In this document: positions 4,091-47,993 of the stretch, in pieces | Layout of the letters: each line of letters starts with the position of its first letter | How positions within the stretch are numbered: the first letter of the stretch is position 1 | Source of the DNA: Cymbomonas tetramitiformis | Lineage: Eukaryota; Chlorophyta; Pyramimonadophyceae; Pyramimonadales; Pyramimonadaceae | DNA: 64,000 nt | Assembly: GCA_001247695.2 (NCBI GenBank) | Contig: LGRX02035154.1 | Span: 27,998-91,997, forward strand | Reading direction: 5' to 3' | Translations under genes and position numbers: made by a program | Notes under the pieces: model-generated | Told to the model about the DNA's origin: nothing | What the model saw: the letters and a program-made list of their open reading frames with translations, nothing else | The model's database searches: none

Positions 4091-4165
4091 CCTCGCTCCC
4101 CTCTTTGCTGACCGGGTTTCCGTCTTGGCTGACCGTAGGGGTTAATTCGAAGACCGCACTTGCTG

Positions 4166-7853: not shown

Positions 7854-8027
7854 ATGGTGTCAACACGTCGTGAAAGGTGTGCCTCACTCGCCAGCCTCGG
7901 TTTTAGCTTGTCTTGGAGCGTATTACATCTCGCACACTTTTTCAGTGTGAAACCTAATTTCTACCCATTTGTAATCATCAGGGCTGGACTGTTACGACCG
8001 CCCGTAACTCCCAAGTTGAACAAGGCT

Positions 8028-30186: not shown

Positions 30187-30699
30187 TCAGCAAACGGTGC
30201 TATTGCAGGCTTGTCGTACCCAAAACCGATGGTCACGGGAGTCTTCTGCAACTTTCACTGAGAACACTGCAACTTTGCTACCATCTTTGTTTTCAAGCAC
30301 CTTGACCTTTATTGCAGTAGTACTGCCTAGAATTAAACTTTCTCTTGCTTGAAATGAAGGGTGTTTATAGATACGCGTTGGGAATACGCGTTGGGATTGA
30401 GCATTTTGGGCACAGCCAAGGAGTTGCTCGGGTGACCCATAGGACTCAACGACTATAGCACAGCCAAGGAGTTGCTCAGGTGACCCATAGGACTCAACGA
30501 CTATAGCACAGCCAAGGAGTTGCTCAGGTGACCCATAGGACTCAACGACTATAGCACAGCCAAGGAGTTGCTCAGGTGACCCATAGGACTCAACGACTAT
30601 AGCACAGCCAAGGAGTTGCTCAGGTGACCCATAGGACTCAACGACTATAGCACATGGCGTTTTGAATGGAATGGATGAAATGTCAGCGGTGTAGTGCAT
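30187..30699 (-). CDS. Unidentified ORF with five in-frame 16-residue repeats
   Basis: Read from the ATG at 30,699. The frame is open further, to 30,768, but begins with TTG. After a short lead it contains five almost identical copies of CAIVVESYGSPEQLLG, encoded by a 48-bp tandem repeat (30,409-30,653). The C-terminus includes AIKVKVLENKDGSKVAVFSV and ends CNSTVC. The repeat keeps frame because its unit is a multiple of three, which may be coincidence. It lies 16 bp from the lipase 3' end, convergent with it, so the C-terminal codons could equally be lipase 3' UTR. I do not recognise a family. Confidence 0.35.
   Translation of the reverse strand: MHYTADISSIPFKTPCAIVVESYGSPEQLLGCAIVVESYGSPEQLLGCAIVVESYGSPEQLLGCAIVVESYGSPEQLLGCAIVVESYGSPEQLLGCAQNAQSQRVFPTRIYKHPSFQARESLILGSTTAIKVKVLENKDGSKVAVFSVKVAEDSRDHRFWVRQACNSTVC
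30409..30653. repeat. 48-bp tandem repeat, five copies
   Basis: Unit cacagccaaggagttgctca... repeats five times with almost no differences, which implies recent expansion. Confidence 0.95.
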
Positions 30700-31110
30700 G
30701 CATGTCGGCTGCGAATAAAGAAAATATAATGCAGTGATAATGCTAAACGACTTCGGGAATTTGGTCAAGCAGCGGGTTAGACCACAATGACGCAGGGCAC
30801 CGTGATTCGGCAGTATTTGTCTGGTAACCGGGGCTGGAGTGCGCTACCTAACGCTCCGTCGTCGAAGAGATGATGACCAGGTTTAGATCGCATGGCCCAC
30901 CTGGTACCGAATCACCTGACGGGGGGGGATGCATTCACCTCCTGGTAGTATGCGTTGTCCCAGCACATGCCAACGAACGAAACAACCCACAAAAACAACG
31001 CGTACAATAACACAAGCCCAAATGGAAGGGAAAACCAGAAAATCGAAATGCAACTGACAAACAGACGAGGACAAAAATGACAAAGAACGGAAAGAGAGGG
31101 AGCCGGAAAA

Positions 31111-31700
31111 CCCTATGTTGCATGATACGCCCCCCCCCCGGGCGTAAATTACGCGTAAATTACGTATTTCGGGCCTTGTGAGTTTTACGCGTAACACGTA
31201 ACACGCCATAGGAATCTCACCCAAATATAGGCTGAAATTCAACCTATATATGAGCTGAAATTCAGCCTATATATGAGGCTATATATGAGCTGAAATTCAG
31301 CCTATATATGAGGCTATATATGAGCTGAAATTCGGCCTATATATGAGCTGAAATTCAGCCTATATATCACCTGAAATTCAGCCTATATATGAGCTAAAAT
31401 TAAGTGCTAAAATAAAGAGGGCTTCCGTCCGTGCAGCTCAGACCGTCGGAAAGTGTAATAAGACCTAATTTTGCCTGGTTGGAAACCTTGGAATTCACAA
31501 CTTAGAACTTTTTCATTGTCGGGGCTTCTGGGCGAGGCGGCTCGCGACGACCTCTGGCTCCCGCGCGTTTGGTGTAAAATCGCGATTTTACGCCACCCAG
31601 CGTAAAATTGCCCGGAAATTAAGCCGACGTAAATTACGCGTAAATTACGTATTTCGGGCCTTGTGAGTTTTACGCGTAACACGTATCATGCAACATAGGG
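31111..31700. mobile_element. 590-bp MITE with perfect 19-bp inverted ends
   Basis: CCCTATGTTGCATGATACG at 31,111-31,129 is exactly complementary to 31,682-31,700. AAAA flanks both sides and may be a 4-bp duplication. A subterminal block (acgcgtaaattacgtatttc...) occurs near both ends in the same orientation (about 31,143 and 31,627). The middle holds about eight copies of a 24-bp unit (gcctatatatgagctgaaat) at 31,225-31,400. No ORF. Confidence 0.85.
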
Positions 31701-32294: not shown

Positions 32295-33216
32295 TGTCGC
32301 GAACTTATGCACAACGTGTCCACACAAAGCACGACCCTCTAGCCCTACTACTAAACAGTCTTACTTATTGTCAGCGCTCCTACAACACCAGCTCGGTACT
32401 GTATATATTGTCTTTTATACTCGTACAGTTGACTTTCTACTGCACCTGCACAAATTTTCAAAATTTTTGATATCTTCTTCTCTTATACACTTATGCAAGC
32501 TCTTTTTCTCGACATGAAAAAGACTGTTAATTACAGTTCTGACACTATCGCACACGAGCAAGTTCCACAAAAGTATATCTTTACAAGCAGAAGAATGCTA
32601 TATCTTACAAATCATATCATAACACTGCTGTTTTCGCGGTCTAAGCGAGTCCTTGTTATTTTCGGAATCACTGTTACGAAGGCAAAACAAAAATGAGCGT
32701 CTGCCTCACACTTCCACGCCGCCCTATATCTCTTCTCGCTGTCTCCGGAACACTGTCACCAACTGTCTCTCCGCTGTCACAACTTGTCAGGCTACAGTCA
32801 CCAACTGTCTTGACTAGCTCGTAACCTGTACTGCGCTAGTTACAAGGTGTAACACCCATCCGTACTTCCGTACCATATCACTGCTATAACCGCTCGCGCG
32901 TATCGTACTGCGCGTGTTATATGTTCGTCACAGAGACTACTGTCCCAAGTGTCACAACCCGGCTAAGGTACACGACAAGCCGCGGTTTGTGACAGCTGTC
33001 GCGAACTTATGCACAACGTGTCCACACAAAGCACGACCCTCTAGCCCTACTACTAAACAGTCTTACTTATTGTCAGCGCTCCTACAACACCAGCTCGGTA
33101 CTGTATATATTGTCTTTTATACTCGTACAGTTGACTTCCTACTGCACCTGCACAAATTTTTAAAATTTTTGATATCTTCTTCTCTTATACACTTATGCAA
33201 GCTCTTTTTCTCGACA
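32295..33216. repeat. 220-bp direct repeats on both sides of the left LTR
   Basis: A 220-bp block, tgtcgcgaacttatg...ctttttctcgaca, lies at 32,295-32,514 and again at 32,997-33,216 with two visible differences. Between the copies sits the 480-bp LTR (plus two bases). The inner copy lies at the 3' end of the element's internal region. The outer copy is missing from the far (right) side of the other LTR. The block itself has TG...CA ends. Confidence 0.9.
32515..32994 (-). repeat. 3' LTR (480 bp)
   Basis: TGAAAAAGACTG...GTTTGTGACA on the plus strand, so TG...CA on either strand. It matches the LTR at 47,514-47,993 with one difference noticed (t at 32,842 against c in the other). Confidence 0.93.
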
Positions 33217-33251
33217 TCCCCCATCTGTAGCTGCCACTGGTAGCACAGACA

Positions 33252-36200
33252 TTAAACAAGAGCTTGCTCAGCATCTTCTGTCGTAGCACCATCCAGCGCG
33301 AACTTGCCCATGCTGAAGGTAAACATACCCACTCCAGAAGCTTCCCCTCCTCGCAGCATTCTAGCCCGCGTCAAGGGATTCCGAAACACCACGACCCACA
33401 TGCATCTTCTACCAATAGGTCCATGCTCTAAGTGTCCAATCACATGTAAGCGCCCAGCGTGACACAACTTACGAAAGTACTGTGCCCTGCTCTCTGTCAT
33501 ATCTGTCATGTAGTGCGATGGCACATGAATACAAGCCACCACTCGGCTAGCCAGCCCTGCCAATGGCAACGCAATATCCAACACTGCGAACCAGGGTGAG
33601 GTCACCACTGCGTCACACACCCCATACTTCTCCTTCCAGGCACGATAGTTGCCTGGCTGCAAGGCGTTAAGGGCCTCGTGCCATTTCAGCTGTGGGTTCC
33701 AATCGTTATTCATAAACTTCAGGTGAGGCCATTCCAGTGACATAACTTTGCCAATGACACCTGTGCCAGCCCATGGGTCCCAGACCTGTGTGATCTTTTC
33801 CCAAGTCACCTCGTGCGCCAGGCGCCTGACCTCCTGGGGAACTGTCATCACCAGCTCCAAGCCCCAGTTTAGTTGACTGGCAATTTTCACCTGGGCTCTG
33901 CTCAACTGCGTAACATCCCCCCTCTTCTGCACCTCCTCTGGGCTCATGGCCTGCACCGTAGCCATCCTGCGAAGGTTTCTTGCGCGAGTGTGCTGCTCTG
34001 CACACTTTCTGCTCAAGATGGTGCGATGGCCCTCATGCCAGAATCCTGGCATCACGTCTGTAATCACTCTGCTGAGCTCCTCCTGGTTCCCCCAGGCTAC
34101 TCTGTCAGGGAGATCCCCCATGCTCCCTTCTTTCCTGAGCATCTGTCGCGACGTGAGTGCCTGCCATGGGTCTTCACGCCCCAGTTTCACTGCACGATGT
34201 GGACCCACGTCTGCAGGCAACAACACCACATCTGAGCCCAACTTCTCTCTCAGCTGTAGCTTCACGGCAGCCATCTTCTCCACGATCGACGCGCTCACCT
34301 CAGCAGCAGCTGCCACCACCGCGCCACCCAAGCATTTGGGACATTGCCACTCTCCTTCAGGTACTCCATCCAGCGCTGGCTCCAGACACCACTTGTGATA
34401 GCCACGATTACAGGTGTCACACAGCAACATCGCTGCCTCCCCATCTGCTCTCATGCACCTCTCACACGCGAGGTGCTTGCTGGGGATGGCTGCACTGCAG
34501 TCATACTGGTCTTTAACCTGCAGGTGACACGGTGCAATGTTCTGCACTGTGCTCTTCTCCCGCAGCTTCGTGCTGTCCTCCAACACCACCACCCCATCTC
34601 TCTGCACCTTAACTATCTTTAAGATGACTGGCTTGGTGGCCACCTCCATGCCAGAGCGTGGCTGCTGCCGTATGTATACAAAATCGCCCGCCTTGAACTG
34701 ATGCGGCTTCGGCTCGTAGCTGCCACTCCTCCGGTGCTCATACCGCAAGGTGTCGCGGTGTTGCGCGATCTCCAGGTTGCACCCTGCGTGCACCATGAGC
34801 TTCTTCACGATGGCTGCTCGCTGCAGCAAGTCCTCAGCCAGTGTCCTCTCCTCCTGCTTCTCAAAGTCCAACTCGGGTCGGGTGCGAAGGTCTGGTGGCA
34901 CCGTGGCTTCCTGAGCGAACAACAGGGTGAATGGCGCCACTCCAGTCGACTGCTGTTTAGCTGCATTGTAGCTGAGCACTAGTGACCAAAGCATCTCGTC
35001 CCACTCGAAGTCCAGGCCCTTGTCGAGGGCCATCTTCTTAAAGCAAAACTTGAGAGTGCGCACCACCCGCTCAGTCAAGCCGTTGCTCTCTGGGGAACTC
35101 GGCGATGTCACTCTCCGGTCAATGAGACACTGCCTGCATAGTGCGGCGAACTCGCCCTCAAACTCCGTACCCCCATCCACGAGGCATTCTGCCGGCGCCC
35201 CAAACACGGATAGCACGTGATTGCGAAACGCACTGGCGATGGTGGCAGCCTCCTTGTCAGGAATTGGAACGCACACGACGAACCGCGTATAGTGCTCGAT
35301 CATGACCAAGACGCGTTGGTTCCTAGCCTTCGTGATGCGCTTCGTGGGCCAGGCTAAGTCCAAAGACCAGCGGTACATGAAGGACTTGATTTCCAGCGGC
35401 GTGAGCATCGCCTCCTCCCGTGCATAGTGGGTCTTCACCCTCTGACAAGTCTGACACTGAGTGACCACTGCTCGTACATCCTGTTTCATGCCCACCCAGT
35501 AATGGCGTTGCCACAACAAGTTAAGCGTCCGCCTGATGCCCCAATGGCCAGTCCTCTCATGGTGCTCACGCACCAGCTGAATCCGGTCACAGGGCTTGGG
35601 CACCAGAAGCTCCTTGCCACTGACGGTGACCATGTATAACTCGCCCATGAGCTCGTCCCAACGGTGGCGTGCTGCTCTCTTCCTCACTCTGTGGTACTCC
35701 TCCTTGGGCACCTCCACTCTTCCTCCTGCCTTTATCCACGCGAGGCACAGCTCGTCCTCGTGTATGTCAGGGTGCTTCTCTCGAAGTGACTCCTGGTGGG
35801 TTACGCTGGCCAGCATGGCGACCATTCTCGTAGTGTCAGACAGCCTAGGCAGCCTCATCTCTTTCTCCTTCGCCACTGGTGCCCATTCTGGGGCTGAGCT
35901 TGTCCCTGCTGGCTTGACCCCAGGTCTTGAAAAGGCCTGGCGATGGCGCGCCTCATAGCCCGCGAGCTTCATGGAGGCAAGCTTCCACTGTCTGCGTCGT
36001 GGGATGGCGTCGGCGGTGCCGATTCCCTGAGTGCCTGTCTGCCCTTGACTGCACATGTGTTGCAACCGCTCCTCCCAGTCCTGATGGCTAAGGCGCCGTG
36101 CGACTTGCTGGGTGTAGTCGTTGGAACTGGTGATCCACTCAGCTAGTTGCGCTCGCACTGGCTCGGTTGTGTCCTCGGAAGTTGAAGCCATGTTGGTGGG

Positions 36201-39200
36201 CTTCACGATGGGAATAGCAGCTAACGTGCCATGATCCTCCTCCTCGCTCTCCTCGCTCTTCGGCAGTTTGGTCGTGCTGACCTCGGCAATTGCATACAGC
36301 AGCTCCATTGCCCTCCGGTCCATGGCAAGGCCCAGCACTCCTGCCAACTCTTCGTCCTTCATGCCATGCGCCATGCGCAGCTCACTCGCGCTGTACCCCA
36401 TGGCAACAGCCTTCTCATCCAGGTTGACCTCTCTGGTTTCCCCCATTTCTTCATCATCTCCTTTCCTTACTACCGTGCCTGCGCGAGGTGCGCGAAAGGC
36501 GCGAGAGTTCTGTGTCGCCAAGATGGTTGGCAACACTCTCATAGGTTCCCCCACCACGTTAGCGGTGTAGTGAGGCTTCCTGTCTCCAGTGACAACCCTG
36601 CGTGGCCTCCAGCCTCGCTGTAGGATATCGCGTACGTATCTGTCTGGTGGTCTGTCCACCCCCTCCATCACCAGATTGAACTGCTGATTCTGTAATAGAT
36701 TGCTCCAGTACGCTCGTAGACGATGCGCGTATGATCCCGCGCGTGCTGCGTCGAAGGATACTGGCTGGCCCACCACGCTGTTGATGATGGGAAACACTTC
36801 CTTCCTGATCTTCGAGTTCTCCCTGTGTGACAACGGGGAAACGTTCTCTAGCACATATGCTGGCGGCCGCTGAGGCTGTACCTGCTGTAGCGTAGAAAGG
36901 ATTCGCACTGCCTGGTAAAACAGTCTGCTGTGCCTGCCCTCCAAACCAGCCAGCTTGCCAGCTGGTGACAGGTCCTGGCATGGATATCCACACACCATGA
37001 CCCATTGTTCTCCACCCAATGCCCCTGCATGTACGAGGTCCATGAGACTGGTGTCTTCGATGTTGCTGGGCAGCTGCTCTAGATGAGCTGCCTCTGTCTG
37101 AAACAAGTCGGGATGACGGCGGCTGAGTGCCATGCACCTGGCCCTGGCTACCGCCTGGCTGGACTTCGAGATGTCCTGGTAGAGGTACTTGTTGACCTTG
37201 ACTCCACAGCGCAGGAGCATCTCTAGTCCAGCACACAGGCCCCCACACGGCTCATAGCAGACCACACCTTCTTCTCTAGCCTCCTGAAAGAAACTCTTGT
37301 CAATCACTCTCGTGTCGATCTTCTTTGGCACTTTGAGCTTGCCACCCTCCATAGTCTCGTCGCTGTATACCGCTGGGGAGCCTCCAGAATGCATGCCCCT
37401 GATTGGCCGAATCTGGCTGAGGGCCTCCCAGGCGACTCGTGTCAGCCTGCCCGAGCACCTGGCCACATCCGGGTGGTCAGTGTCGAACATGACCCCCTTG
37501 TTGCACTCCAGCTCTTCTTGGTAGTGCAAGTCAAATAGCCGATGGACTGCGCTGGTCCCCAACTGCTCCCTGACCATGTTCTCGCAGTAGTTGGCCACCT
37601 GTGCCTCTGGGCTCACTTCTGAACCAAGTGGTGGCTCCCTGGTCACTTCCAAGCAGATGGTGTCTGCGAAGCAGCGCGTTAGCCTCTCGGCACGCCCCGC
37701 TTCCCTGGCGTGGTCCCCTTCTCGGTCCAAGCGGGCACCGGTCTCGTCTGCGGTGCTGGGTAGCGGGTACCTGGATGGCACGTCCGCGTTCTCATTCTTC
37801 GGACCTGGTCGGTACTGGACCGTGAACTCAAACTCCTGAAGGCTAATGGCCCAGCGCAGATGTTGGCCCTGCAGGTCCCCCTTCTCCATGAGAGTCGTGA
37901 GCGGCGAGTGGTCGGTTACCAGCGTGAAGTGGATCCCGTGCAAGTACTGGCGTAACGTGCGAATCGCCCACACCACTGCCAGCATCTCACCCTGGAAACT
38001 CGCGTACTGCCTCTCAGTTTTCGACAGCGAGCGACTGATCACCACGCAGATGTGTTCTACGCCGTTCTCGTCCTTCTGACCCAGCACTGCACCAATGCCA
38101 TGGTTGCTCCAGTCCGTGTAGAGGAAAATGGGCTTGTAATCGATGGGCTTCAAACATCTCCCCGAACATAGGGCGTCCTTCAGGGCCTGCAATGCCTGGT
38201 CCTGCTCCTTCCCCCAAGCTTCCTTGATGTCCAACACATCCTTCCTGAGCAGGTCGTTCAGTGGTCGTGCCATCTCTGAGTAGTTGGGTCCCATGGGCTC
38301 CCCCACCAAGCCCTTGTAGTAGTTCATGAGTCCAAGGATGGAGCGTACCCCAGTCTTGTCCTCGGGCTTGGGCAGCTCTTGGATGGCTTTGCACTTGATG
38401 TCCTGCGCACCAATGGTGTTGTAACCAATGCGGTAGCCCAAGAAGTCCACGGTGGCTGACCCAAAGGTCGACTTGCCCGAATGCAAGCGGATCCCTGCAT
38501 CCCCCAAGGTGCGAAGCACAGCTTCTACATCCTTGATGTGCTGCTCAGCGGTGTCTGAGTATATGCACACGTCATCGACGTACGCCACCGTACAGTGCTG
38601 CAGGTGACGCAACTCGTAGTCCATGATTCTGATGAAGGCAGCGGTCGCTCCAGCTGCTCCGAATGGCATGGAAGTGTAGCGATAGAGCTGATTGCCCCAC
38701 CAGAACGCTGTCTTGTCCCTGTCCTCCTCGGTGGTCATGGGGATCTGGTGGAACGCCTTGGTCGCGTCAAGAGTAGTCTTGAACTTGGCCTTAGCCACGC
38801 GCTGGTAGAGCTCTTCTGGACGGTGAGGCAGCGTGTTGTCCTTCAGTGACAGCCGGTTCGTGTTGCGGAGGTCGACGCAGAATCTCGTCGAGGTCCACTG
38901 TCCGGTGTCGTGGTCCTTCTTCCCTGCGACCACCACGTTGCTGGCGTGCCTGCAGTGCTGCGAAGCCGGCTCGATGAAGCCATATTCCAACAGCTCCTTG
39001 CAGTGCAGGTCGATGATCTCCTGTTCCCCTGGGCTGTATTTCCTCGGTCGCTGGTAGGCCACCTTGGTCTCGTCCTTGAACGGGATGGCGAAGGTTGCAT
39101 GCGCTGCTCCTCCATGGTAGCCTTTGATGTCCTGCGGCTTGTTGGCGAAGCAATAGCTGCATCTCCTCACCACGTTGCGCATCTCCTCCCAATTCTCCTC

Positions 39201-40226
39201 AGTGAACTCGGGATGCCCTCCAAAGGTGGCATTGAGCTCGGTGTCCAGCCACGCTGCCTCGTCTTTGGTGACCCTGGTTGTGCCCCCGGGCTGCAACGTA
39301 TCCAGCACCGTGTGCGGAAGCACCTCGTCTCGCTCTGCCACCATGGCCTCCCACCCGGTGTCCCATTGGCGCGAGGACCTCTGGTCCTCCCAGGCGGTCC
39401 TGGAAGGTCTGCACAGCGAGTTCGAGCACGGGCCCACTGCAGGCATGCCCTGAAGCTCCCTGGGGGCCACAGCGGCCACCCAAGCGGCCACCACGAGCAA
39501 CAACAAAAGTTTTAAAATTCTGCTGGTCCCCACTGGTTTGACTGGAGGGCGAAGGGTCAGTATGCAAGTCAGCATCCTCCACCCCCCCTGCATACGGCCC
39601 AGGCCTCCTCCCGCAGACACGTAGATCACCAGCGCCAAGACTGACGCCACATAAACGCAATGGGCCACTTGGTAGCAAGCGGTTGCGAGCCGCAGGCGCT
39701 GCAGCCGGGCGGCAAAACGCGGCTTCTGCACGCGACGAGGGACAGCTGCCAGCGTGGCCGGTCCCGCCGCTGTGATTCGCTGGGCGATCGCCAGCGCACG
39801 GCTCACTTGCGCGCCAAACGCAGTGAATGCGCCTCTGTCGCAAACCAAGCAGGAGCCTGGCAACCCATGGCGCATCACGTGGACGACGACCACCAAGATG
39901 CCCCCCAGAGTACCGACCATGTGTGTGAAGTTCATGGCGAGCATGGCGAGCCCAAACCGTAACAATGGCACGCACCACAGCCCGCGATGGACATGGTGGA
40001 ACCCCGTCACCTCAAAGGCTCCCACGACCAGCAACAGGAGGTGCCTAGCCAGTTCCAACAGCACACGCAGATGCACACGATGATGTGTCCATGGCCCGAG
40101 CGACGCGGTACGTCCGGCCCACAACGCGCGCGCCACGACTCTGTGGAGCACACCAGTGCGGCACGCCCAGATGGCAACCATCTCACTAAGGCACCTGGAC
40201 ACCTCCATGGCCATCCATATGACCAT
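33252..40226 (-). CDS. pol: Pol polyprotein with RT, RNase H, C5-methyltransferase, integrase, PHD finger and second methyltransferase-like domain
   Basis: The frame is open from 40,445. Residues below are numbered from 40,292; the first ATG is at 40,226. Domains in order: hydrophobic region with about four membrane-like segments (76-96, 112-142, 208-228, 259-276); reverse transcriptase with TLDATKAFHQIPM and YVDD (571-574); RNase H (LYTDWSNHG, Glu769, Asp794); C5-cytosine methyltransferase (about 1,008-1,340); integrase zinc region H-x3-H...C-x2-C (HHERTGH, CQTCQ, about 1,577-1,617); integrase core with Asp1645, Asp1706, Glu1741; a GPY/F-like module (1,864-1,925); PHD finger (1,943-1,987); amino-methyltransferase-like domain (about 2,140-2,310). 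The frame overlaps the end of ORF4 by 88 bp in the -1 frame, so pol may be made by frameshifting. No protease is present in pol; it sits in gag. Confidence 0.9.
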   Translation of the reverse strand: MVIWMAMEVSRCLSEMVAIWACRTGVLHRVVARALWAGRTASLGPWTHHRVHLRVLLELARHLLLLVVGAFEVTGFHHVHRGLWCVPLLRFGLAMLAMNFTHMVGTLGGILVVVVHVMRHGLPGSCLVCDRGAFTAFGAQVSRALAIAQRITAAGPATLAAVPRRVQKPRFAARLQRLRLATACYQVAHCVYVASVLALVIYVSAGGGLGRMQGGWRMLTCILTLRPPVKPVGTSRILKLLLLLVVAAWVAAVAPRELQGMPAVGPCSNSLCRPSRTAWEDQRSSRQWDTGWEAMVAERDEVLPHTVLDTLQPGGTTRVTKDEAAWLDTELNATFGGHPEFTEENWEEMRNVVRRCSYCFANKPQDIKGYHGGAAHATFAIPFKDETKVAYQRPRKYSPGEQEIIDLHCKELLEYGFIEPASQHCRHASNVVVAGKKDHDTGQWTSTRFCVDLRNTNRLSLKDNTLPHRPEELYQRVAKAKFKTTLDATKAFHQIPMTTEEDRDKTAFWWGNQLYRYTSMPFGAAGATAAFIRIMDYELRHLQHCTVAYVDDVCIYSDTAEQHIKDVEAVLRTLGDAGIRLHSGKSTFGSATVDFLGYRIGYNTIGAQDIKCKAIQELPKPEDKTGVRSILGLMNYYKGLVGEPMGPNYSEMARPLNDLLRKDVLDIKEAWGKEQDQALQALKDALCSGRCLKPIDYKPIFLYTDWSNHGIGAVLGQKDENGVEHICVVISRSLSKTERQYASFQGEMLAVVWAIRTLRQYLHGIHFTLVTDHSPLTTLMEKGDLQGQHLRWAISLQEFEFTVQYRPGPKNENADVPSRYPLPSTADETGARLDREGDHAREAGRAERLTRCFADTICLEVTREPPLGSEVSPEAQVANYCENMVREQLGTSAVHRLFDLHYQEELECNKGVMFDTDHPDVARCSGRLTRVAWEALSQIRPIRGMHSGGSPAVYSDETMEGGKLKVPKKIDTRVIDKSFFQEAREEGVVCYEPCGGLCAGLEMLLRCGVKVNKYLYQDISKSSQAVARARCMALSRRHPDLFQTEAAHLEQLPSNIEDTSLMDLVHAGALGGEQWVMVCGYPCQDLSPAGKLAGLEGRHSRLFYQAVRILSTLQQVQPQRPPAYVLENVSPLSHRENSKIRKEVFPIINSVVGQPVSFDAARAGSYAHRLRAYWSNLLQNQQFNLVMEGVDRPPDRYVRDILQRGWRPRRVVTGDRKPHYTANVVGEPMRVLPTILATQNSRAFRAPRAGTVVRKGDDEEMGETREVNLDEKAVAMGYSASELRMAHGMKDEELAGVLGLAMDRRAMELLYAIAEVSTTKLPKSEESEEEDHGTLAAIPIVKPTNMASTSEDTTEPVRAQLAEWITSSNDYTQQVARRLSHQDWEERLQHMCSQGQTGTQGIGTADAIPRRRQWKLASMKLAGYEARHRQAFSRPGVKPAGTSSAPEWAPVAKEKEMRLPRLSDTTRMVAMLASVTHQESLREKHPDIHEDELCLAWIKAGGRVEVPKEEYHRVRKRAARHRWDELMGELYMVTVSGKELLVPKPCDRIQLVREHHERTGHWGIRRTLNLLWQRHYWVGMKQDVRAVVTQCQTCQRVKTHYAREEAMLTPLEIKSFMYRWSLDLAWPTKRITKARNQRVLVMIEHYTRFVVCVPIPDKEAATIASAFRNHVLSVFGAPAECLVDGGTEFEGEFAALCRQCLIDRRVTSPSSPESNGLTERVVRTLKFCFKKMALDKGLDFEWDEMLWSLVLSYNAAKQQSTGVAPFTLLFAQEATVPPDLRTRPELDFEKQEERTLAEDLLQRAAIVKKLMVHAGCNLEIAQHRDTLRYEHRRSGSYEPKPHQFKAGDFVYIRQQPRSGMEVATKPVILKIVKVQRDGVVVLEDSTKLREKSTVQNIAPCHLQVKDQYDCSAAIPSKHLACERCMRADGEAAMLLCDTCNRGYHKWCLEPALDGVPEGEWQCPKCLGGAVVAAAAEVSASIVEKMAAVKLQLREKLGSDVVLLPADVGPHRAVKLGREDPWQALTSRQMLRKEGSMGDLPDRVAWGNQEELSRVITDVMPGFWHEGHRTILSRKCAEQHTRARNLRRMATVQAMSPEEVQKRGDVTQLSRAQVKIASQLNWGLELVMTVPQEVRRLAHEVTWEKITQVWDPWAGTGVIGKVMSLEWPHLKFMNNDWNPQLKWHEALNALQPGNYRAWKEKYGVCDAVVTSPWFAVLDIALPLAGLASRVVACIHVPSHYMTDMTESRAQYFRKLCHAGRLHVIGHLEHGPIGRRCMWVVVFRNPLTRARMLRGGEASGVGMFTFSMGKFALDGATTEDAEQALV
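33363..33875 (-). other. Amino-methyltransferase-like domain at the pol C-terminus
   Basis: VWDPWAGTGVIGKVM matches motif I (SAM-binding loop, D/P-x-x-G-x-G) of Rossmann methyltransferases. Some 55 residues later DAVVTSPWFAVLDIAL occupies the place of motif IV, the [DNS]-P-P-[FYW] catalytic loop of N6-adenine and N4-cytosine methyltransferases. Here it reads S-P-W-F, with the second proline replaced. A NNDWN segment between could be the acidic motif II. The fold assignment is fairly good; target base and activity are open because of the changed loop. Confidence 0.65.
34332..34466 (-). other. PHD finger within pol
   Basis: A full C4-H-C3 series: C-x2-C (CERC), C-x2-C (CDTC), H (GYHKWC) and C-x2-C (CPKC), with the typical LLCDTCNRGYH and GEWQCPKC phrases. 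PHD fingers bind histone H3 tails. Placed just after integrase, it could steer insertion to chromatin with a given mark, as the chromodomain does in chromoviruses. The steering role is inference. Confidence 0.9.
36273..37271 (-). other. C5-cytosine DNA methyltransferase domain within pol
   Basis: The motifs appear in canonical order. Motif I: CYEPCGGLCAGLEMLLRCGV (residues 1,012-1,031 of the frame). Motif IV: catalytic Cys1105 in GYPCQDLSPAG. Motif VI: LENV (1,148-1,151). Motif VIII region: HRLRAYWSN, reminiscent of the RxRxxWGN of DNMT3-type enzymes. Late motif: REVNLDEKAVAMGY. The catalytic cysteine and ENV are intact, so activity is plausible. It would transfer a methyl group from S-adenosylmethionine to cytosine C5. 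It is placed between RNase H and integrase. C5-methyltransferase domains have been reported in retrotransposons of some algae and dinoflagellates, so acquisition as such is not new. Confidence 0.88.
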
Positions 40227-40357
40227 TACTGCAGAGTGAGGCAGCTGCGGCCATTGCAAGCGTGCGAACACCCCCACTATCAGGAAGCACACCTGCGTGC
40301 GCTTCGCCCACCGTTCACCGGCGGGCTGCGTGCCCGGCTGCGCGCCGGGGCTGCTTC

Positions 40358-41260
40358 TCAGTAGCGGGCGTGCCGGGCTGCAGCCGGCCCGGTGCCCCCT
40401 TGAAAAGGCCCCAGTGCGCTCTCCCTTCTTCTCTCCTCCCAGCGTTCATCATAACTCAGGCGCTCATAGGAAGTGCGCGGCGCGCTCCTGCCCGCATGCT
40501 GACTGCGAGCTGCTCCATGTTGCTGGACCCCCCTCCTAGGGCTCGGAGATCTCCTCCTGCGCTGTCCAGCCCGTGGCGAACGCTGCTGCACGGGCCTCGC
40601 GGTCAAGCTCGGCGGGCTCGTCGCGAGATGGCCATCATGTCGGGCGGCGACGCGCGCGACACGACCACTGGACCACTCTGGGCTGCTGGGCGCTGTGGAG
40701 CCCCGGGTCGGCGATGGCACGAGCGAAGTGGCCTCCTGTTCTGGCGCAGCCGGAGGCAGAACTTCAGTCCGCTGCGTGCAGACAGAATGCGTCGGAGACC
40801 TTAGAATGTCGTTGACTGACTGGTGCTCGGACCGCTGAGCCATGTTGCACTCGAAGCCCCTGTGCTGCGTCCCGCTGAGAGCATGGCCAGGGTGGTGTTC
40901 CCTCGTAGGCGCCGCTCTCGCACCACCACGACCATCAAGCCCAGGGCAGTCAGCCCCTAGCGTGCTCATCCTCGCAGTTACGCGGGCAACGCGAGGTCGC
41001 TCTTCGTACCCCCTGATGATCTCCGTGCGGATTCTTATGGATTCTTCAAGCGCCGCTATGGTGATGGCGCGCGCTTGTGCCAGATTAGCGGCAAGACCAG
41101 CAAAGTTCTCGCTAGTGACCTCCACTTCCTCTTCCTCAGAGGAACTCTCTGTCTGTGGCGACGTAGGTGTCCAGTGTGAGGCGCCACTGACTTCTTCCTC
41201 ACCCCCTGCATGTTCGTGATGGGAACCATCATCTTCCTCCGCTGTGTCCAAGCATCGCAT
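40358..41260 (-). CDS. Retrotransposon accessory ORF4 (300 residues, unknown)
   Basis: ATG start, 8 nt after the stop of ORF3. Acidic N-terminus (ESSSEEEEVEVTSENFAGLA) with one likely helix, then a long Arg/Pro/Ser-rich, probably disordered C-terminal half (AGQRRRRSPSPRRGVQQHG), which could bind nucleic acid. No known domain is seen. Its end overlaps the open pol frame, which is in -1, so it may be the upstream partner of a frameshift. Confidence 0.65.
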   Translation of the reverse strand: MRCLDTAEEDDGSHHEHAGGEEEVSGASHWTPTSPQTESSSEEEEVEVTSENFAGLAANLAQARAITIAALEESIRIRTEIIRGYEERPRVARVTARMSTLGADCPGLDGRGGARAAPTREHHPGHALSGTQHRGFECNMAQRSEHQSVNDILRSPTHSVCTQRTEVLPPAAPEQEATSLVPSPTRGSTAPSSPEWSSGRVARVAARHDGHLATSPPSLTARPVQQRSPRAGQRRRRSPSPRRGVQQHGAARSQHAGRSAPRTSYERLSYDERWEERRRESALGPFQGGTGPAAARHARY

Positions 41261-41267
41261 GAAGTCG

Positions 41268-42404
41268 TTACGCAGGTGTTCGTGTATCTCCTCGCTGGCG
41301 CTGGCGCTCTGCTTCAGCCAGCAGTGTGGGCCCTACCAGGGACGTGAACTCGCGTAATGGCTCTCGATGCATAACGGCCACACTGTTCCAGGTCTCCCAG
41401 CCGCAGCAGTCGAACTTGCGCGTCTCAGAGGAGAGGTACTCCACGGTGAACCATAGCTCTTCGGCTCCCCTGTCATGGTAGTAGCGTCGGTCTTCAAAGA
41501 GGTAGTAGACGGCCTTGGCCTGGGGGTTGGCTCGTGTCTTGAACACCCGCAGAGTGCCTCGCCGTGGACCATCACTCAAGTGGCTCTTGGCTATCTCCAC
41601 CAGCTGTGCGCTCGCGCCAAGGTGCTCCATGTGCTTCCGTATGGTGCCCAGGAGTCCACCCGTGCAGCCTTTCGACTGCCCACCCAGCGGCAAACACTCT
41701 CCTCGCTGACCTACCCCTGCAGAGGAGGAGTACTTGTACAGTGTCTTGTTGCTGAGTTGGCACGTGTGCACCCCCTTCCCTCGTTGCGCATAGGGCTTCC
41801 CAAGCTGGAACTCGATTCTGCCTCTGAAACAACGGTACTGGACGAGGAACACTGTCTGCCCGTGCAACGCGGTGAACTCGGAGATCTCCTCTGGATTCAG
41901 CCAGCGGGCCTCGCCGGTGGTGTTCTCGCTGCGTGTGGGTGACTCTGGCTCGTAAGTGCCCTGGAACACCGACGCGTGATATTCTGGATCCGCAGGGTCG
42001 AAAACTCCCTTGGGCCAGGTTTGATGCTTCAGGCGCAGCGGGGCTGAGGATGGCGGCGGCGTAGAGCCAGATGGCCCTGCCTCATCTCCTCTGACCATCT
42101 TCTGCGTCCTGGGAGTCTTGCACGTGCGTGCTGGCGGATCCCTCCTGGCCCCATAGGAGTTTAGCGCGTCACGCGCCTGCTCCTCCGTCTTGCACGCACC
42201 AAGCATTACTCTGGTGTTGTCCCCCAAGTGCAGGTACTCCACGGCGGCGGCGTTTGTGCTGAACACCTCACCGTCTCCTCCTATCCCATCAGTCACTGGG
42301 TAGAACTTCCCCACCTTGCCAGCTGCGTCCGACAGCGTGAGTTGAGGGATAACCTTCACGTTCAGGTTCTCCACACCAGCCACCTCCTCATCGTACTTTG
42401 TCCT
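41268..42404 (-). CDS. Retrotransposon accessory ORF3 (about 371 residues, unknown)
   Basis: Open from 42,404 to the TAA at 41,268-41,270 without an ATG near the start; the first non-ATG codon called at 42,383 is GTG. It overlaps ORF2 by 17 bp in the +1 frame, and ORF2 ends ..GTA CGA TGA: skipping one base at CGA-U-GAG would lead straight into ORF3. It looks globular (TALHGQTVFLVQYRCFRGRI, LWFTVEYLSSETRKFDCCGW) but matches no family I know. Its integrity in a recent element argues that it is used. Confidence 0.65.
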   Translation of the reverse strand, partial: RTKYDEEVAGVENLNVKVIPQLTLSDAAGKVGKFYPVTDGIGGDGEVFSTNAAAVEYLHLGDNTRVMLGACKTEEQARDALNSYGARRDPPARTCKTPRTQKMVRGDEAGPSGSTPPPSSAPLRLKHQTWPKGVFDPADPEYHASVFQGTYEPESPTRSENTTGEARWLNPEEISEFTALHGQTVFLVQYRCFRGRIEFQLGKPYAQRGKGVHTCQLSNKTLYKYSSSAGVGQRGECLPLGGQSKGCTGGLLGTIRKHMEHLGASAQLVEIAKSHLSDGPRRGTLRVFKTRANPQAKAVYYLFEDRRYYHDRGAEELWFTVEYLSSETRKFDCCGWETWNSVAVMHREPLREFTSLVGPTLLAEAERQRQRGDTRTPA

Positions 42405-42708
42405 TCAGGCGAGCGCGAAGGTCATTGATGTCCACCCGCTGCACGTACTTCAGGTGCTGATATTGCCAACGCTGATCCTTCTCGTAGTAGAAGGGCAGCT
42501 GGAACTCGCCAGTCACCTTCCCCATGGGGCTCACGTTGGTGGCACCATCCATGATGTGACGCACCATGCGCTCCATGAGATCCCACTGGGCGCGAGTGTG
42601 CTCGCTGAGCACGCAGAACTGGCGTGCCACCTTGTCCCACATGAGCTTGCCAGTGACGACCCCTGGGTAAGTCTGGTTGGCGTTGAGGGCCTCCTGGACG
42701 CTCGCCAT
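42388..42708 (-). CDS. Retrotransposon ORF2 (106 residues), in frame with gag across one UGA
   Basis: ATG at 42,708. Exactly the same frame as gag: after the gag TGA (42,793-42,795) the frame stays open for 28 codons to this ATG and on to the TGA at 42,388-42,390. It could therefore be made by stop-codon readthrough, as in gag-UAG/UGA-pol elements, or by separate initiation. The predicted protein is small and helical with aromatic residues (FQLPFYYEKDQRWQYQHLKY). Function unknown. Confidence 0.65.
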   Translation of the reverse strand: MASVQEALNANQTYPGVVTGKLMWDKVARQFCVLSEHTRAQWDLMERMVRHIMDGATNVSPMGKVTGEFQLPFYYEKDQRWQYQHLKYVQRVDINDLRARLKDKVR

Positions 42709-42792
42709 TGTGCACCTCCCAGCCTCCCAATGGGCACCACAGTCAGGAAGCGGGACCTGGTCGCTGTCCTTTCTGTAACTTGCCCTCGCTGT

Positions 42793-45700
42793 TCAGGTCT
42801 CTGAGGGTACCTTCGCCTCCTTGTCAACCTTCTGATCGACCAGCGTGAAGTCGGGCCACAGTAGCTCCGTCTCCAAGATGGTTTTCCACTCTCCACAGCG
42901 CGGGAACTTGACCTGTACAAATCCTGCGTCCACTTCACTCCCGTTGCCATCTTCACAGAGTGTGCACAAGCGAGCGTAGCCCGTGCGGTCGATGTACAGG
43001 CGCTGCTGAGCCCAGCTGCTCTCCTTGTCTTGCCAATCCCACGGATTCACTGCCATGCCCTCCCAAGGCTGCACACTAGCCAACTTGTAGTCAGCTTCAC
43101 TCTCAGCCTCTTGCTCCTGCGTGAGGTCTGGGTAGCGAGGATCTGCCTGGGCTGTGGCCAGGCTGGCTGGCGTAACGGGCTCGACCTCAGCTGACTCTTC
43201 AGCACTGGACCATTCGCCTCTGGTTGCAACGTTGGCCTCCCGCTGGCTGCGTGACGTCGCTTGCAGCAGGCCCAACATCTGGTTCGTTATGGCCGTGCCG
43301 GGAGCAGGTGGCTCGAACAATGAGTTCTCGGCCCGCAAGCTGACCCGTCCAGTGACCTCTATCTGCATGAGCGCGCCGGGTCGCAGGATGCCCGCGTCCA
43401 CCATGGACTGGCAGCGTGCCTCCAGCATCTCCTTCTCCTCCTGGTTGAACCTTCTCAGCCTCATATCTTCTAGGAATCCTGCCAGGCTCTCCACCAGCTC
43501 GGGGTGGTTCCGTAGGAATGCACATGGTGCTGGTGCACACCTTTCCCCTGAGAGGGCCAGGCGATCCTCTCCCCTTGTGTCTGGAGGCACGGCCTCACGT
43601 GGAGGTAGAGCACAGTCCTCAAAGATTGGGGTAAGAGTGCGCGCTAGTGTGGCACCATCGTCGAAGATCTCAGTCGCCAGGCACACCCTGGGGTCTTCGT
43701 TTCGCTTGCTCCTCGCATCAGCGGGCGGCGTAAGCTCGATCAACGGCAGCGTGACCTTCTCCCTCATGCCCAGTGACACCGCGGCCTCGGAGGTGGCGAT
43801 GCCTCGGTAAAGGTCGATGGTCAACTTGAGTACATTCTTCAGGGGTCCTGTGCCCACCAAGAAATCCCACGTGGTGTCGTTGGTGAAAGTGACGAAGGCA
43901 TGGAGCCGATGCAGAGTCATGTATGGCGTGCCCGCAGCGAGGACCACATCTACGTAGCAGTACTTGGTGAACTCTGCAGGGCTGCCATCACACCTGGCCA
44001 CCCTGGCCCCCGTCTCCGCATCGAAGATAGTCAAGCCAAGCCTGTTGACCGTTCTGATGGGAATGATGTTGCAATTAGCTCCAGTGTCCAGAAGCAGCGC
44101 TTTGTACAACATGAGCAGGCCCCCAGAGGCCATCAGAGCCATCCCTTGTGCCAGGGTCTCGTTGAGAAGCTTGCACACTGGCTGGACCTGCGCCATGGCG
44201 GTGAGCTGCTCCTCCGTGAGGCCACTGAGCATCTTCTTTTTCAACAGTTCGTATGCTTTGGCCTCCATTGTCCCTGCGTGTAACTCACCCCTCTCGCTGA
44301 AATCCTTCACGCCGTAGCTCTCCTGGACTGTGGCCGCTGCAGCGGTGACGCGCACCGTGGTCCTCACTTTCCTGGGCTGCTCCACCATGTCCTCTGGCAT
44401 CTCGTCCAGAGGGATCTCCTCCTCATCGCTGTCGTCACCGGACTCCATGCCTGGGCAGTCGTCATCCTCATCGCTGTCGTCACCATTGTCTTCGCCGCTG
44501 CCCTGTCGGTCTGCCGCTGAGGCTGCTGCCATAGGGAGCTGATCGGCCTCAGCTAGCTCTACCAAGGTTTCCACACCCCTGGGAGCTGTTATCCGACCTT
44601 CTGCCACGAGTCCAGCAGCTAGTTTGCGGAAAGCCGCTCCAAGACTCTTGATCATGGAGGCCATGAGCTGTACCTTTCTCTGCATCTCGTCCGCTGCAGG
44701 CGCCATGGGCACCTGTGCGTCGGCCTCATATTCCTCGGGTGTCTTCACCGGGAAACCTCTCATGCGCTGCGTGCTGCCTAGTGCTACCGCCGGTGCTGCT
44801 GCGAGCTCGGACTCCACACCCTTGTTCAGCATCTCGGGGAGTTCCCCCAAGCCCAAGGTGTTGAGTGCGTCTGAGAGTGCCTCCTCACCCATCTCCTCGG
44901 CCATCGCTGAGAGTACGTTGGTTGGAGAGCAAGATGGCGTTGCTGCCCCTGCGCTGACACGGTGTTGCGCATGCGAGACTGTGATGTGCGTCTCTCTCTC
45001 TGCGACGCGCGCTGCGACTGGCTCCTCATCGGAGCCCTCGTCCTCAGATAGCACCTGCGACCTCACGCTGCCAGCGCGGCTGGCAGTCTTCCGGGCAGCC
45101 ACCATGCCCTGGTACTCAGCCTTCAACGCCTCAGGGTTGCCAGTGGTGCTTTTCTGCTTGTCCTCTGGTGTCTGCTTGCGGTACTTGTCCTTCTCGTCAT
45201 TGGACAGCTGCTGCCAGTCCGTGACAAGGATGCCCCAATCAGAGTTCTTGAAGCGGTTCCTCAGGTTGTACATGCGCAAGGCGGCATTCTCTGCGTCCCA
45301 CCACTTGCTGGAACCGAGTCTGCTCTCGTGGAACCCGGCAGGCATCTTGACGTGTTTATATCCGCTCCTGCATTGCTCGGGGTCAGACTCGTGCCACCCC
45401 CCTCCGAAGCAGCGTAAGCACTTGGGCTTGTCGCTCGTACGAGTGCCCTCTGCTGGCGGCGGTGTCTTGTTGTAGGAGGGCTTCTTAGCCCTTTCAGCAA
45501 CATTCACCTCCTTTTTCATCTTCTTGGAAGGTGGTGTCTCCGCCTTCCTGCTGCCCTCCAGCTCGCCTGGCTGCCCTTCCCCCACGGACTCAATCTTCTT
45601 GATCGAGTTCTTTATCGCCTTGAGGTCGAGTCCATGTTGACGAGCCTCCCAGGTAGAGTACTGGCAGCCACACCGTCTGGTGATCTCCTGGAGGAAGGTA

Positions 45701-46878
45701 AGAATCCAGGACTCCGCGTCTCCCTTGAGCTTGTCCTGGACCTCGACGATGGACTCGAGGTCCTTCCAGGTTACCCGATTTGGTGGCGGGAACTGCGCCC
45801 TCAGTTGCTCCTTTACTCGTGTCTGGAAGATCTTAATGCGGAGGTTTTCTACGCAGTCCTCGATGAACGTACGCAGCTCCTCGTCGCTCAGCACCTTGCC
45901 AGTGTTGAGCTGCATCTCCCTGCGTTGACACATCTTCATGTACGTTAGCCCATCCTGCCCCACCTCATGTGGCTTCTGTGTCAACAGATCCACTTTCTCC
46001 TGTGTTCCTTTCATCATAAACTTCTTGTCAAGGGCAGCGATGAAACCCCTGAGCGCGTAGAAGTACTGAGTGTCACGGGTACCATCATGTCCCGTCAAGC
46101 CTTTCAGCGAAGTTCCATCAGTCAGGTAGTCGTTGGAAACTTCCCCTTGGGCGTCTTGGTCCGTCACTGGCCTCGCTATCACCCACGTGGTACCAGCATT
46201 CATTTCATTGAAGGGGGGCCTAGCACACGGGATAGTACCCTCGAGTGGGCCATGTTCACTAGTGTCTTTGAGGACTCGGTCCATATTGGAGGCCACTACA
46301 CCCCCTTTCTCATAATTCTCACGCCACCCGCTGAGAGTTTGCGAATTCTCGCCAGCCAGACATGCAGGGATGATGTCCCACAGATACTCAAAGTCAGGAG
46401 GTGTCTCTCTCAGGGCCTTGATCTGCGCCTCGGTGAGCGTGCCAGCCGCGGACCTGATCTTCCTTCTGATGTTGGCGTTGTGCTGCCGCACAAAATTCTC
46501 GCACATGTTGGCAAATTCCCTCAGGAATTTGGGACGGCGGTCTTCTTCCTTGGTGCCCGTGTAGATGGGCAGAGTGCCAAGGTTGACGCGCGTGGAGTCT
46601 GTGTACTCCATTTCCTCCTCGAATATTACCAACGGGTCCTGGACTTGGACCTGAGGTAGCACTGGCGCTTGGGGTTGGACCTGAGGTAGCACTGGTGCTT
46701 CGGCCTCAGGCTGGCCTCTGGCAGCCCCTTCCTCTTCTTCCAGCTCTGTGAAGTGCTGGCTCACCCGTATCGCTCTCTGGGTCTGCCTGTCTGCCCTTTG
46801 CTGCTTCTGCCGGTCAGTGCTGGACTCCGTTGCTACCTTTTCGGTGGTGAGGGATGCCGGTGTGAAAGCTCTTTTCAC
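42793..46878 (-). CDS. gag: Gag-protease polyprotein (1,361 codons)
   Basis: The frame opens at 46,893; the first called codon is GTG and the first ATG is codon 90 (46,611). Homology to the decayed gag begins before that ATG (QHFT), so a non-AUG start or a spliced leader is likely. Features: Gln/Pro repeats (APVLPQVQ, residues 61-80); a gag body with DYLTDGTSLKGLTGHDG and VTWKDLESIVEVQDKL; a zinc-knuckle-like C-x2-C-x5-H-x6-C at 487-503; acidic runs at about 795-825; a retropepsin-like aspartic protease with LLLDTGANCNIIP at about 929-941. The C-terminal 350 residues are unassigned. Gag forms the particle and the protease matures it. Placing the protease in gag rather than pol is a less common layout. 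Confidence 0.88.
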   Translation of the reverse strand: MKRAFTPASLTTEKVATESSTDRQKQQRADRQTQRAIRVSQHFTELEEEEGAARGQPEAEAPVLPQVQPQAPVLPQVQVQDPLVIFEEEMEYTDSTRVNLGTLPIYTGTKEEDRRPKFLREFANMCENFVRQHNANIRRKIRSAAGTLTEAQIKALRETPPDFEYLWDIIPACLAGENSQTLSGWRENYEKGGVVASNMDRVLKDTSEHGPLEGTIPCARPPFNEMNAGTTWVIARPVTDQDAQGEVSNDYLTDGTSLKGLTGHDGTRDTQYFYALRGFIAALDKKFMMKGTQEKVDLLTQKPHEVGQDGLTYMKMCQRREMQLNTGKVLSDEELRTFIEDCVENLRIKIFQTRVKEQLRAQFPPPNRVTWKDLESIVEVQDKLKGDAESWILTFLQEITRRCGCQYSTWEARQHGLDLKAIKNSIKKIESVGEGQPGELEGSRKAETPPSKKMKKEVNVAERAKKPSYNKTPPPAEGTRTSDKPKCLRCFGGGWHESDPEQCRSGYKHVKMPAGFHESRLGSSKWWDAENAALRMYNLRNRFKNSDWGILVTDWQQLSNDEKDKYRKQTPEDKQKSTTGNPEALKAEYQGMVAARKTASRAGSVRSQVLSEDEGSDEEPVAARVAERETHITVSHAQHRVSAGAATPSCSPTNVLSAMAEEMGEEALSDALNTLGLGELPEMLNKGVESELAAAPAVALGSTQRMRGFPVKTPEEYEADAQVPMAPAADEMQRKVQLMASMIKSLGAAFRKLAAGLVAEGRITAPRGVETLVELAEADQLPMAAASAADRQGSGEDNGDDSDEDDDCPGMESGDDSDEEEIPLDEMPEDMVEQPRKVRTTVRVTAAAATVQESYGVKDFSERGELHAGTMEAKAYELLKKKMLSGLTEEQLTAMAQVQPVCKLLNETLAQGMALMASGGLLMLYKALLLDTGANCNIIPIRTVNRLGLTIFDAETGARVARCDGSPAEFTKYCYVDVVLAAGTPYMTLHRLHAFVTFTNDTTWDFLVGTGPLKNVLKLTIDLYRGIATSEAAVSLGMREKVTLPLIELTPPADARSKRNEDPRVCLATEIFDDGATLARTLTPIFEDCALPPREAVPPDTRGEDRLALSGERCAPAPCAFLRNHPELVESLAGFLEDMRLRRFNQEEKEMLEARCQSMVDAGILRPGALMQIEVTGRVSLRAENSLFEPPAPGTAITNQMLGLLQATSRSQREANVATRGEWSSAEESAEVEPVTPASLATAQADPRYPDLTQEQEAESEADYKLASVQPWEGMAVNPWDWQDKESSWAQQRLYIDRTGYARLCTLCEDGNGSEVDAGFVQVKFPRCGEWKTILETELLWPDFTLVDQKVDKEAKVPSET

Positions 46879-46896
46879 TCCACACTTCCAAGCTTA

Positions 46897-47423
46897 CCAG
46901 TACGGATAAGTCCGTCCCTGGCTTCACCTTTCAGTGCTTCGCTCTAAGTAGCAATCACTGTGAGGACAATCTCGTTCATGAATGGTGTGCTGAGTCTTGT
47001 CTGTGCCTCGGCCCTGTCTTGTACTACTTCTCGCAGATGCTCAGCCGGGTTGCCTCAACCCTCGGTGTGCCCGGTCAGTACCACGACTCAGAAGAATGCC
47101 AGCATGGGTCAGGTTGCCGCAAAGATTGTTGTCGTGATAATGAACACTGACAACCCTGTTTCGCTCTACGCCCTCAGGCGTACCAGTACGGATGAATCCG
47201 TCCCTGGCTTTACCGTCGGGTGTTTCGCTCCAGCAGGATGTCACCTCCCGAAATAGCCCAGCATGCCATTCTCAACGCTGTAACCATAGTGGAAAATAGG
47301 CACACTGCTTCGCTCTGGTCGCTGTCGCTGTGCTTTGCAAGACTGATGAACTTCGAGTGCCACAACAGTCTGTTTCCCTCAACCTCTTCCAAGGCTTACC
47401 AGTACGGATAAGTCCGTCCCTGG
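46897..47423 (-). promoter_or_regulatory. Three leader hairpins of the intact element
   Basis: Hairpins at 46,897-46,921, 47,183-47,207 and 47,399-47,423. Each has an outer CCAG/CTGG stem and an inner ACGGA/TCCGT stem (extended to ACGGAT/ATCCGT in the middle copy), within larger repeats of about 220-290 bp. The decayed relative at 4.5 kb has the same arrangement with a different inner stem, so pairing rather than sequence is kept. They lie between LTR and gag on the transcript. Confidence 0.65.
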
Positions 47424-47513
47424 CATCACCATTCAGAAGTCTCGTTCTTCAGGACTGCTGTTGCACTTTCAGAATTACAGACGACATGTCTGTAATGCGG
47501 CACATTTTTGTTT

Positions 47514-47993
47514 TGAAAAAGACTGTTAATTACAGTTCTGACACTATCGCACACGAGCAAGTTCCACAAAAGTATATCTTTACAAGCAGAAGAATGCTAT
47601 ATCTTACAAATCATATCATAACACTGCTGTTTTCGCGGTCTAAGCGAGTCCTTGTTATTTTCGGAATCACTGTTACGAAGGCAAAACAAAAATGAGCGTC
47701 TGCCTCACACTTCCACGCCGCCCTATATCTCTTCTCGCTGTCTCCGGAACACTGTCACCAACTGTCTCTCCGCTGTCACAACTTGTCAGGCTACAGTCAC
47801 CAACTGTCTTGACTAGCTCGTAACCTGTACTGCGCTAGTCACAAGGTGTAACACCCATCCGTACTTCCGTACCATATCACTGCTATAACCGCTCGCGCGT
47901 ATCGTACTGCGCGTGTTATATGTTCGTCACAGAGACTACTGTCCCAAGTGTCACAACCCGGCTAAGGTACACGACAAGCCGCGGTTTGTGACA
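47514..47993 (-). repeat. 5' LTR (480 bp)
   Basis: Same length and ends as the left LTR. The promoter for the element should lie within it, but I cannot point to a TATA box with confidence. The usual Met-tRNA primer site (TGGTATCAGAG) is not found next to its inner end, so the primer is unknown. Confidence 0.93.

Follow-up and report, generated by a model that had tools for sequence, protein, structure and literature searches.

Why should a mobile element carry enzymes that methylate nucleic acids, and can a single polyprotein hold two of them with different chemistries? The question arises from a 64,000-nucleotide stretch of the Cymbomonas tetramitiformis genome (contig LGRX02035154.1, positions 27,998 to 91,997; hereafter the window), which contains a 15.7 kb retrotransposon (32295..47993). 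From the letters alone, the pol open reading frame (ORF) of this element had been predicted to join a C5-cytosine methyltransferase, a PHD finger and an amino-methyltransferase-like C-terminus. We view the element, with about even confidence, as a recently inserted gypsy-type retrotransposon of a prasinophyte green alga, with two chemically distinct nucleic-acid methyltransferases in its pol. That two active writers should reside in one pol is plausible. The wider proposal, in which one polyprotein writes 5-methylcytosine (5mC) together with N6-methyladenine (6mA) or N4-methylcytosine (4mC), reads histone tails and sets the chromatin state on each new copy, is put forward somewhat more tentatively.

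The element and all its features lie on the minus strand. The pol ORF spans 33252..40292, as originally predicted, with 2346 open codons from a GTG start and 2397 residues from stop to stop; residue numbers given here follow the stop-to-stop count and exceed those of the original prediction by 51. Pfam domains follow one another in the order reverse transcriptase (RT), RNase H, C5 DNA methylase, H2C2 zinc finger with rve integrase, and PHD finger. The RT (38295..39128, residues 440-717; RVT_1, E = 2e-21) contains an AYVDD motif and is followed by RNase H (37806..38237, residues 737-880; RT_RNaseH, 2.5e-31). The integrase region (34746..35645, residues 1601-1900) combines an Integrase_H2C2 match of 4e-16 with an rve match of 4.4e-7, whose 30.5 bits fall slightly under the cut-off of 32.6. 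The succession of RT, RNase H and H2C2/rve integrase is that of a Ty3/gypsy pol. Where DIRS/PAT elements have a tyrosine recombinase, rve is found instead, and no Phage_integrase match was present in the four element ORFs scanned. A gene model of the same species, P0001, is 98% identical to the window where RT, RNase H and integrase are aligned (728 columns), and 90% identical along the whole pol match, the gene model being without some stretches.

The first methyltransferase lies between RNase H and the integrase (36246..37193, residues 1085-1400) and is a Dnmt3-like C5 enzyme. The landmarks of a C5 methyltransferase are present: the motif EPCGGLCAGLE, a Pro-Cys within GYPCQDLS (catalytic Cys 1156), ENV at 1200 and the late motifs. 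The Pfam match to DNA_methylase (3e-10) is over the cut-off but covers profile positions 64-126 of 324. The nearest solved chains are those of Dnmt3C, Dnmt3A and Dnmt3B (PDB, 3e-5), and it is by similarity to these that the domain is called Dnmt3-like; a further class, ChloroDNMT, is described from chlorophytes and charophytes in the available text of PMC12344493. In a 74-row alignment that includes the window, 69 rows have residues at both the catalytic and the ENV positions. The catalytic Cys is present in 67 of these and the Glu of ENV in all 69; the two rows without the Cys, P0005 and P0031, resemble gene-model breaks. The residue preceding the Cys is more variable, mostly Pro (35 rows) or Glu (27) and otherwise Ser (4), Asp (2) or Ala (1), with Glu-Cys forms such as GWECQDLS and ECKDFS seen in P0009, P0014, P0015 and other relatives. 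When viral sequences and genomes were scanned with this C5 alignment, the best 80 of 526 and the best 80 of 301, respectively, were kept; five ORFs from these loci, and contig L082, were examined.

The second candidate methyltransferase occupies the C-terminus of pol (33315..33884, residues 2188-2377), with a motif I of DPWAGTG at 2223 and TSPWF at 2282. The original prediction depended on a Rossmann methyltransferase fold at this position, and the predicted structure contains one, with block-mean pLDDT values of 80-97 over model residues 211-380. The class I Rossmann fold expected of an exocyclic amino-methyltransferase (N6A or N4C) is thus seen in the predicted model. The amino type of the enzyme is partly supported, by the fold neighbours, by the position of motif I before motif IV and by weak profile matches in relatives. 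With E allowed to reach 10, 5 of 15 relatives weakly match the Pfam family MethyltransfD12 (best E = 2e-4); with E allowed to reach 1, 9 of the 15 match phrog_799, annotated as a DNA methyltransferase (best E = 1.6e-6). These weak matches span motifs I to IV. When 8569 ORFs from viral and bacterial loci were searched, a MethyltransfD12 protein came out on top with one of two C-terminal profiles (E = 0.0018).

Neither MethyltransfD12 nor phrog_799 matches the C-terminal domain of the window itself, and no curated amino-methyltransferase family was matched over its cut-off, the best being the MethyltransfD12 value of 2e-4 in a relative. Motif IV of exocyclic amino-methyltransferases has the form (D/N/S)-P-P-(Y/F/W); the window has SPWF, not S/N/D-P-P-Y/F. 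An SPPF form occurs in the relatives P0045 and P0065. No Pfam family exceeded its cut-off in the C-terminal 250 residues of pol, the NCBIfam matches are weak (best 0.067), and among PDB sequences the C-terminal profile matches a ribosomal protein best (0.027). The MT-A70 profile gave no match in 15 members, in a search where HMMER filters discard weak matches. In beta-class amino-methyltransferases motif IV precedes motif I; the order here is the reverse, and that class was rejected. A bacterial or viral source of the domain was likewise rejected: 62 standalone-size matches, from green algae (Cymbomonas, Astrephomene), under eukprot labels or without an organism name, included no named bacterium or virus, and when viral_contigs was scanned with the C-terminal profile, none of the 6 matching stretches was confirmed.

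Between the integrase and the C-terminal domain lies the PHD finger (34311..34490, residues 1986-2045), which the original prediction had also named and which Pfam recovers at 3.3e-9. It is closest to the fingers of the chromatin proteins KMT2C/D, CHD4, KDM5, ATXR5, WSTF and BAZ2, with UHRF1 lower down. PHD fingers of these proteins bind histone H3 tails.

Are these domains a stable part of a family? Counting the window, 39 of 75 pols have C5 domain, integrase, PHD finger and C-terminal domain together, so the set is a conserved part of the family, and a reading as chance motifs or a single fused gene was rejected because of this count. The C5 domain stands between RNase H and the integrase in 64 of the 65 pols that have all three. 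In the exception, P0074, it precedes the RT, as it does in a related gypsy element on contig L082 (2232-6593), which is filed under a cyanobacterial metagenome-assembled genome. No C-terminal domain match was found in the L082 element; the two ends of that contig share 127 bases, the pattern of a circular assembly, and it is probably algal contamination. A G-patch is present in some relatives (P0012 and, from precomputed domains, P0016, P0044 and P0063).

A near-complete C-terminal domain is found in 34 rows including the window, which were split by the motif SP[WPF][FY] into 21 that keep it and 13 that do not. Among the 21, mean pairwise identity is 43% for the C-terminal domain, 43% for C5 (18 rows), 48% for RT (14 rows), 58% for RNase H (18 rows), 49% for the integrase and 50% for the PHD finger. 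Among the 13, the C-terminal domain falls to 24%, with C5 at 45%, RT at 41% (11 rows), RNase H at 54% (11 rows), integrase at 48% and PHD at 42%. Since the rows were divided on the motif itself, the contrast between 43% and 24% is somewhat favoured by the division. By this contrast the C-terminal domain looks constrained where the motif is kept, to about the same degree as C5 but less strongly than the remaining pol domains, and appears to drift where motif IV goes. On the dual-writer reading, one writer may decay with the other retained: the second in 13 of 34 rows, and the first in the single Tetrabaena protein of the set, the partial P0017, in which the C5 motifs are gone and the C-terminal motifs kept.

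On an unrooted tree of 49 pols, which omits P0074 and P0073 because of flagged length and P0069 by choice (end branch 1.24), the presence of the C-terminal domain in the 41 pols with a domain call requires 4 changes, gains or losses, compared with 12 when the labels are shuffled. Apart from P0046, pols that lack the domain fall into two main clades; inside one of these, on moderately supported branches, lies P0045, which has it. A quick tree of the 52 of 75 rows with enough RT, RNase H and integrase needs 3 changes.

These observations bear on what the second domain does. It is unlikely, though worth some weight, that it is an m6A-type RNA methyltransferase acting on element or host RNA, with the C5 domain alone acting on DNA. 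The best sequence matches, though weak, are to phage DNA-methyltransferase profiles and MethyltransfD12, and the domain is fused behind an integrase and a PHD finger, parts that work on DNA and chromatin. We consider it rather unlikely that the domain is a pseudo-enzyme whose methyltransferase fold was retained for binding or structure. The loss of motif IV in 13 of 34 near-complete rows, in which the domain itself persists, speaks for this reading. Against it, the domain equals C5 in conservation among the 21 rows that keep the motif, compared with 24% identity among the other 13, and in a set of 15 rows, chosen mostly for kept motifs, the N-D, LQP and SP positions show little or no variation.

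That the locus is simply an ordinary element of the KnitGypsy-Dnmt3 type, to which the C-terminal domain contributes nothing of its own, seems very improbable. A Klebsormidium gypsy pol with a Dnmt3 domain and DIRS-like repeats has been published (PMC5890265), the window has the same layout, and a review places gypsy and DIRS retrotransposons bearing Dam- or C5-methylases in green algae, among others (PMC6338049, in the text available). However, the term PHD is absent from the main text of PMC5890265, and the adenine methyltransferases named there belong to DIRS elements. The C5 part of the pol has described counterparts; it is in its PHD finger and second methyltransferase that this variant is new.

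If the pol does carry two writers, a division of labour can be proposed. The C5 domain would methylate cytosines either in the cDNA of the element or in the DNA where it inserts, by analogy with the Dnmt3 domains of SymbioDIRS, which are reported to methylate CG de novo (a SymbioLINE domain tested in yeast failed; both in the available text of PMC5890265). The PHD finger might dock the integration complex onto histone H3 tails, and the C-terminal domain would place an exocyclic-amino mark, 6mA or 4mC, on the same DNA. Both marks could be of use to the element, 5mC disguising the new DNA as host DNA and the adenine mark holding the copy in permissive chromatin. In prasinophytes, 6mA is described as accompanying transcribed genes (PMC12695648, in the part available).

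The ends of the element are described here from one copy. Repeat A (480 bp) is present at the 5′ end (47514..47993) and near the 3′ end (32515..32994), the copies being 99.8% identical by self-comparison of the window; repeat B (221 bp; copies 99.1% identical) has an internal copy (32997..33217), joined to A by GC, and a terminal copy (32295..32515). The order is A-coding-B-A-B, the layout given for DIRS elements in the available text of PMC5890265. The outer ends read TGTCGCG (32295; flank ..TTTA|TGTCGCG) and GTGACA (47993; flank TTTAG), so that TTTA on either side forms a 4-bp target-site duplication, and the internal A/B junction reads GTGACA-GC-TGTCGCG on the plus strand. The duplication matches the outer ends of A and B and not those of A-A; a canonical long terminal repeat (LTR) element with A as its LTR was therefore rejected. 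The element thus has the split direct repeats of DIRS/PAT-type elements, not the simple identical LTRs, flanked by a duplication, of Ty3/gypsy. We infer integration through a circular or permuted DNA form. The few mismatches between repeat copies suggest a young insertion. No further copy was found in 202 kb of another contig from the same assembly, C1 (G000; L081, L162-L181), whose GC content of 33%, against 53% in the window, raises the suspicion that C1 may derive from another organism.

Upstream of pol lies a gag-like ORF (42793..46878, 1361 aa) with the aspartyl-protease motif LLLDTGA (Asp_protease_2 at 0.033, under the cut-off), which is 75-87% identical to parts of the Cymbomonas gene models P0018 and P0001. 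Two open frames separate it from pol (41268-42383 and 40358-41260, span 40358..42383); they match P0018 at 54-78%, and neither has a Pfam match. Across gag and the two following frames, the match to P0018 ranges from 54 to 84%. Because its match continues in the gag frame beyond the stop, to 42403, the gag of this copy may be shortened, or the P0018 gene model wrong. The pol is unbroken, which does not imply that the element as a whole is intact. A second, divergent gag-like stretch (1743-4114, minus strand; 33-44% identical to gag parts of P0018 and P0001) is probably another member of the family extending beyond the window edge.

Elsewhere in the window, plus-strand ORFs carry a DDE_1 transposase-type domain (7830-9977; 8e-14) and DUF7869 (20677-21873; 1e-49). 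Two tandem arrays were also seen: one of 48-base units, 99% alike in mid-array (30362-30702, within a minus-strand ORF at 30187-30768), and one of the 23-base unit CTGAAATTCAGCCTATATATGAG (31197-31416), with some units separated by 12-base pieces.

With a C5 writer, a histone reader and a second methyltransferase in one pol, and this set kept in many relatives, it would become possible to test directly why methylation enzymes are found on mobile elements, with natural comparisons in lineages that have both methyltransferases, one decayed, or the second absent. Such elements may weigh on the Cymbomonas methylome. A cytosine methyltransferase was noted among three Cymbomonas scaffolds that reads cover >10,000-fold, where the modal coverage is ~20 (Burns et al. 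2015, PMC5741210), and a tie to these elements is possible; the available text of that paper contains no element description for those scaffolds.

As described in the sources available in part, Dnmt3-bearing retrotransposons came previously from dinoflagellates and one charophyte, to which the review (PMC6338049) adds methylase-bearing ones in green algae. Among the matches listed from the open-licence literature, no pol combined both methyltransferase kinds with a PHD finger, and an earlier mention is possible. KnitGypsy-Dnmt3 of Klebsormidium nitens (de Mendoza et al. 2018, PMC5890265), compared by description, shares the gypsy pol with a Dnmt3-related C5 domain and the DIRS-like repeats, all found in the window; it differs in its charophyte host and in that its text names neither a PHD finger nor a second methyltransferase. 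SymbioDIRS-Dnmt3 and SymbioLINE-Dnmt of Symbiodinium also hold a C5 methyltransferase inside a retrotransposon, the former with split repeats of the DIRS type, but they are tyrosine recombinase or endonuclease elements for which that text describes no second methyltransferase. The DIRS elements with a Dam-like adenine enzyme, named in the same paper, share an amino-methyltransferase borne by a retrotransposon; they use a tyrosine recombinase, not rve, and neither C5 nor PHD is named for them there. The Ectocarpus Sola1 element likewise places an N4/N6 DNA methyltransferase on an algal mobile element, but it is a DNA transposon with a ParB fusion and has its methyltransferase in a separate gene (PMC12477816, as far as its available text goes). 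Orchid gypsy elements have acquired a methylation enzyme too, an m6A demethylase which, according to the part of PMC9289625 available, erases an RNA mark and is encoded in a separate ORF.

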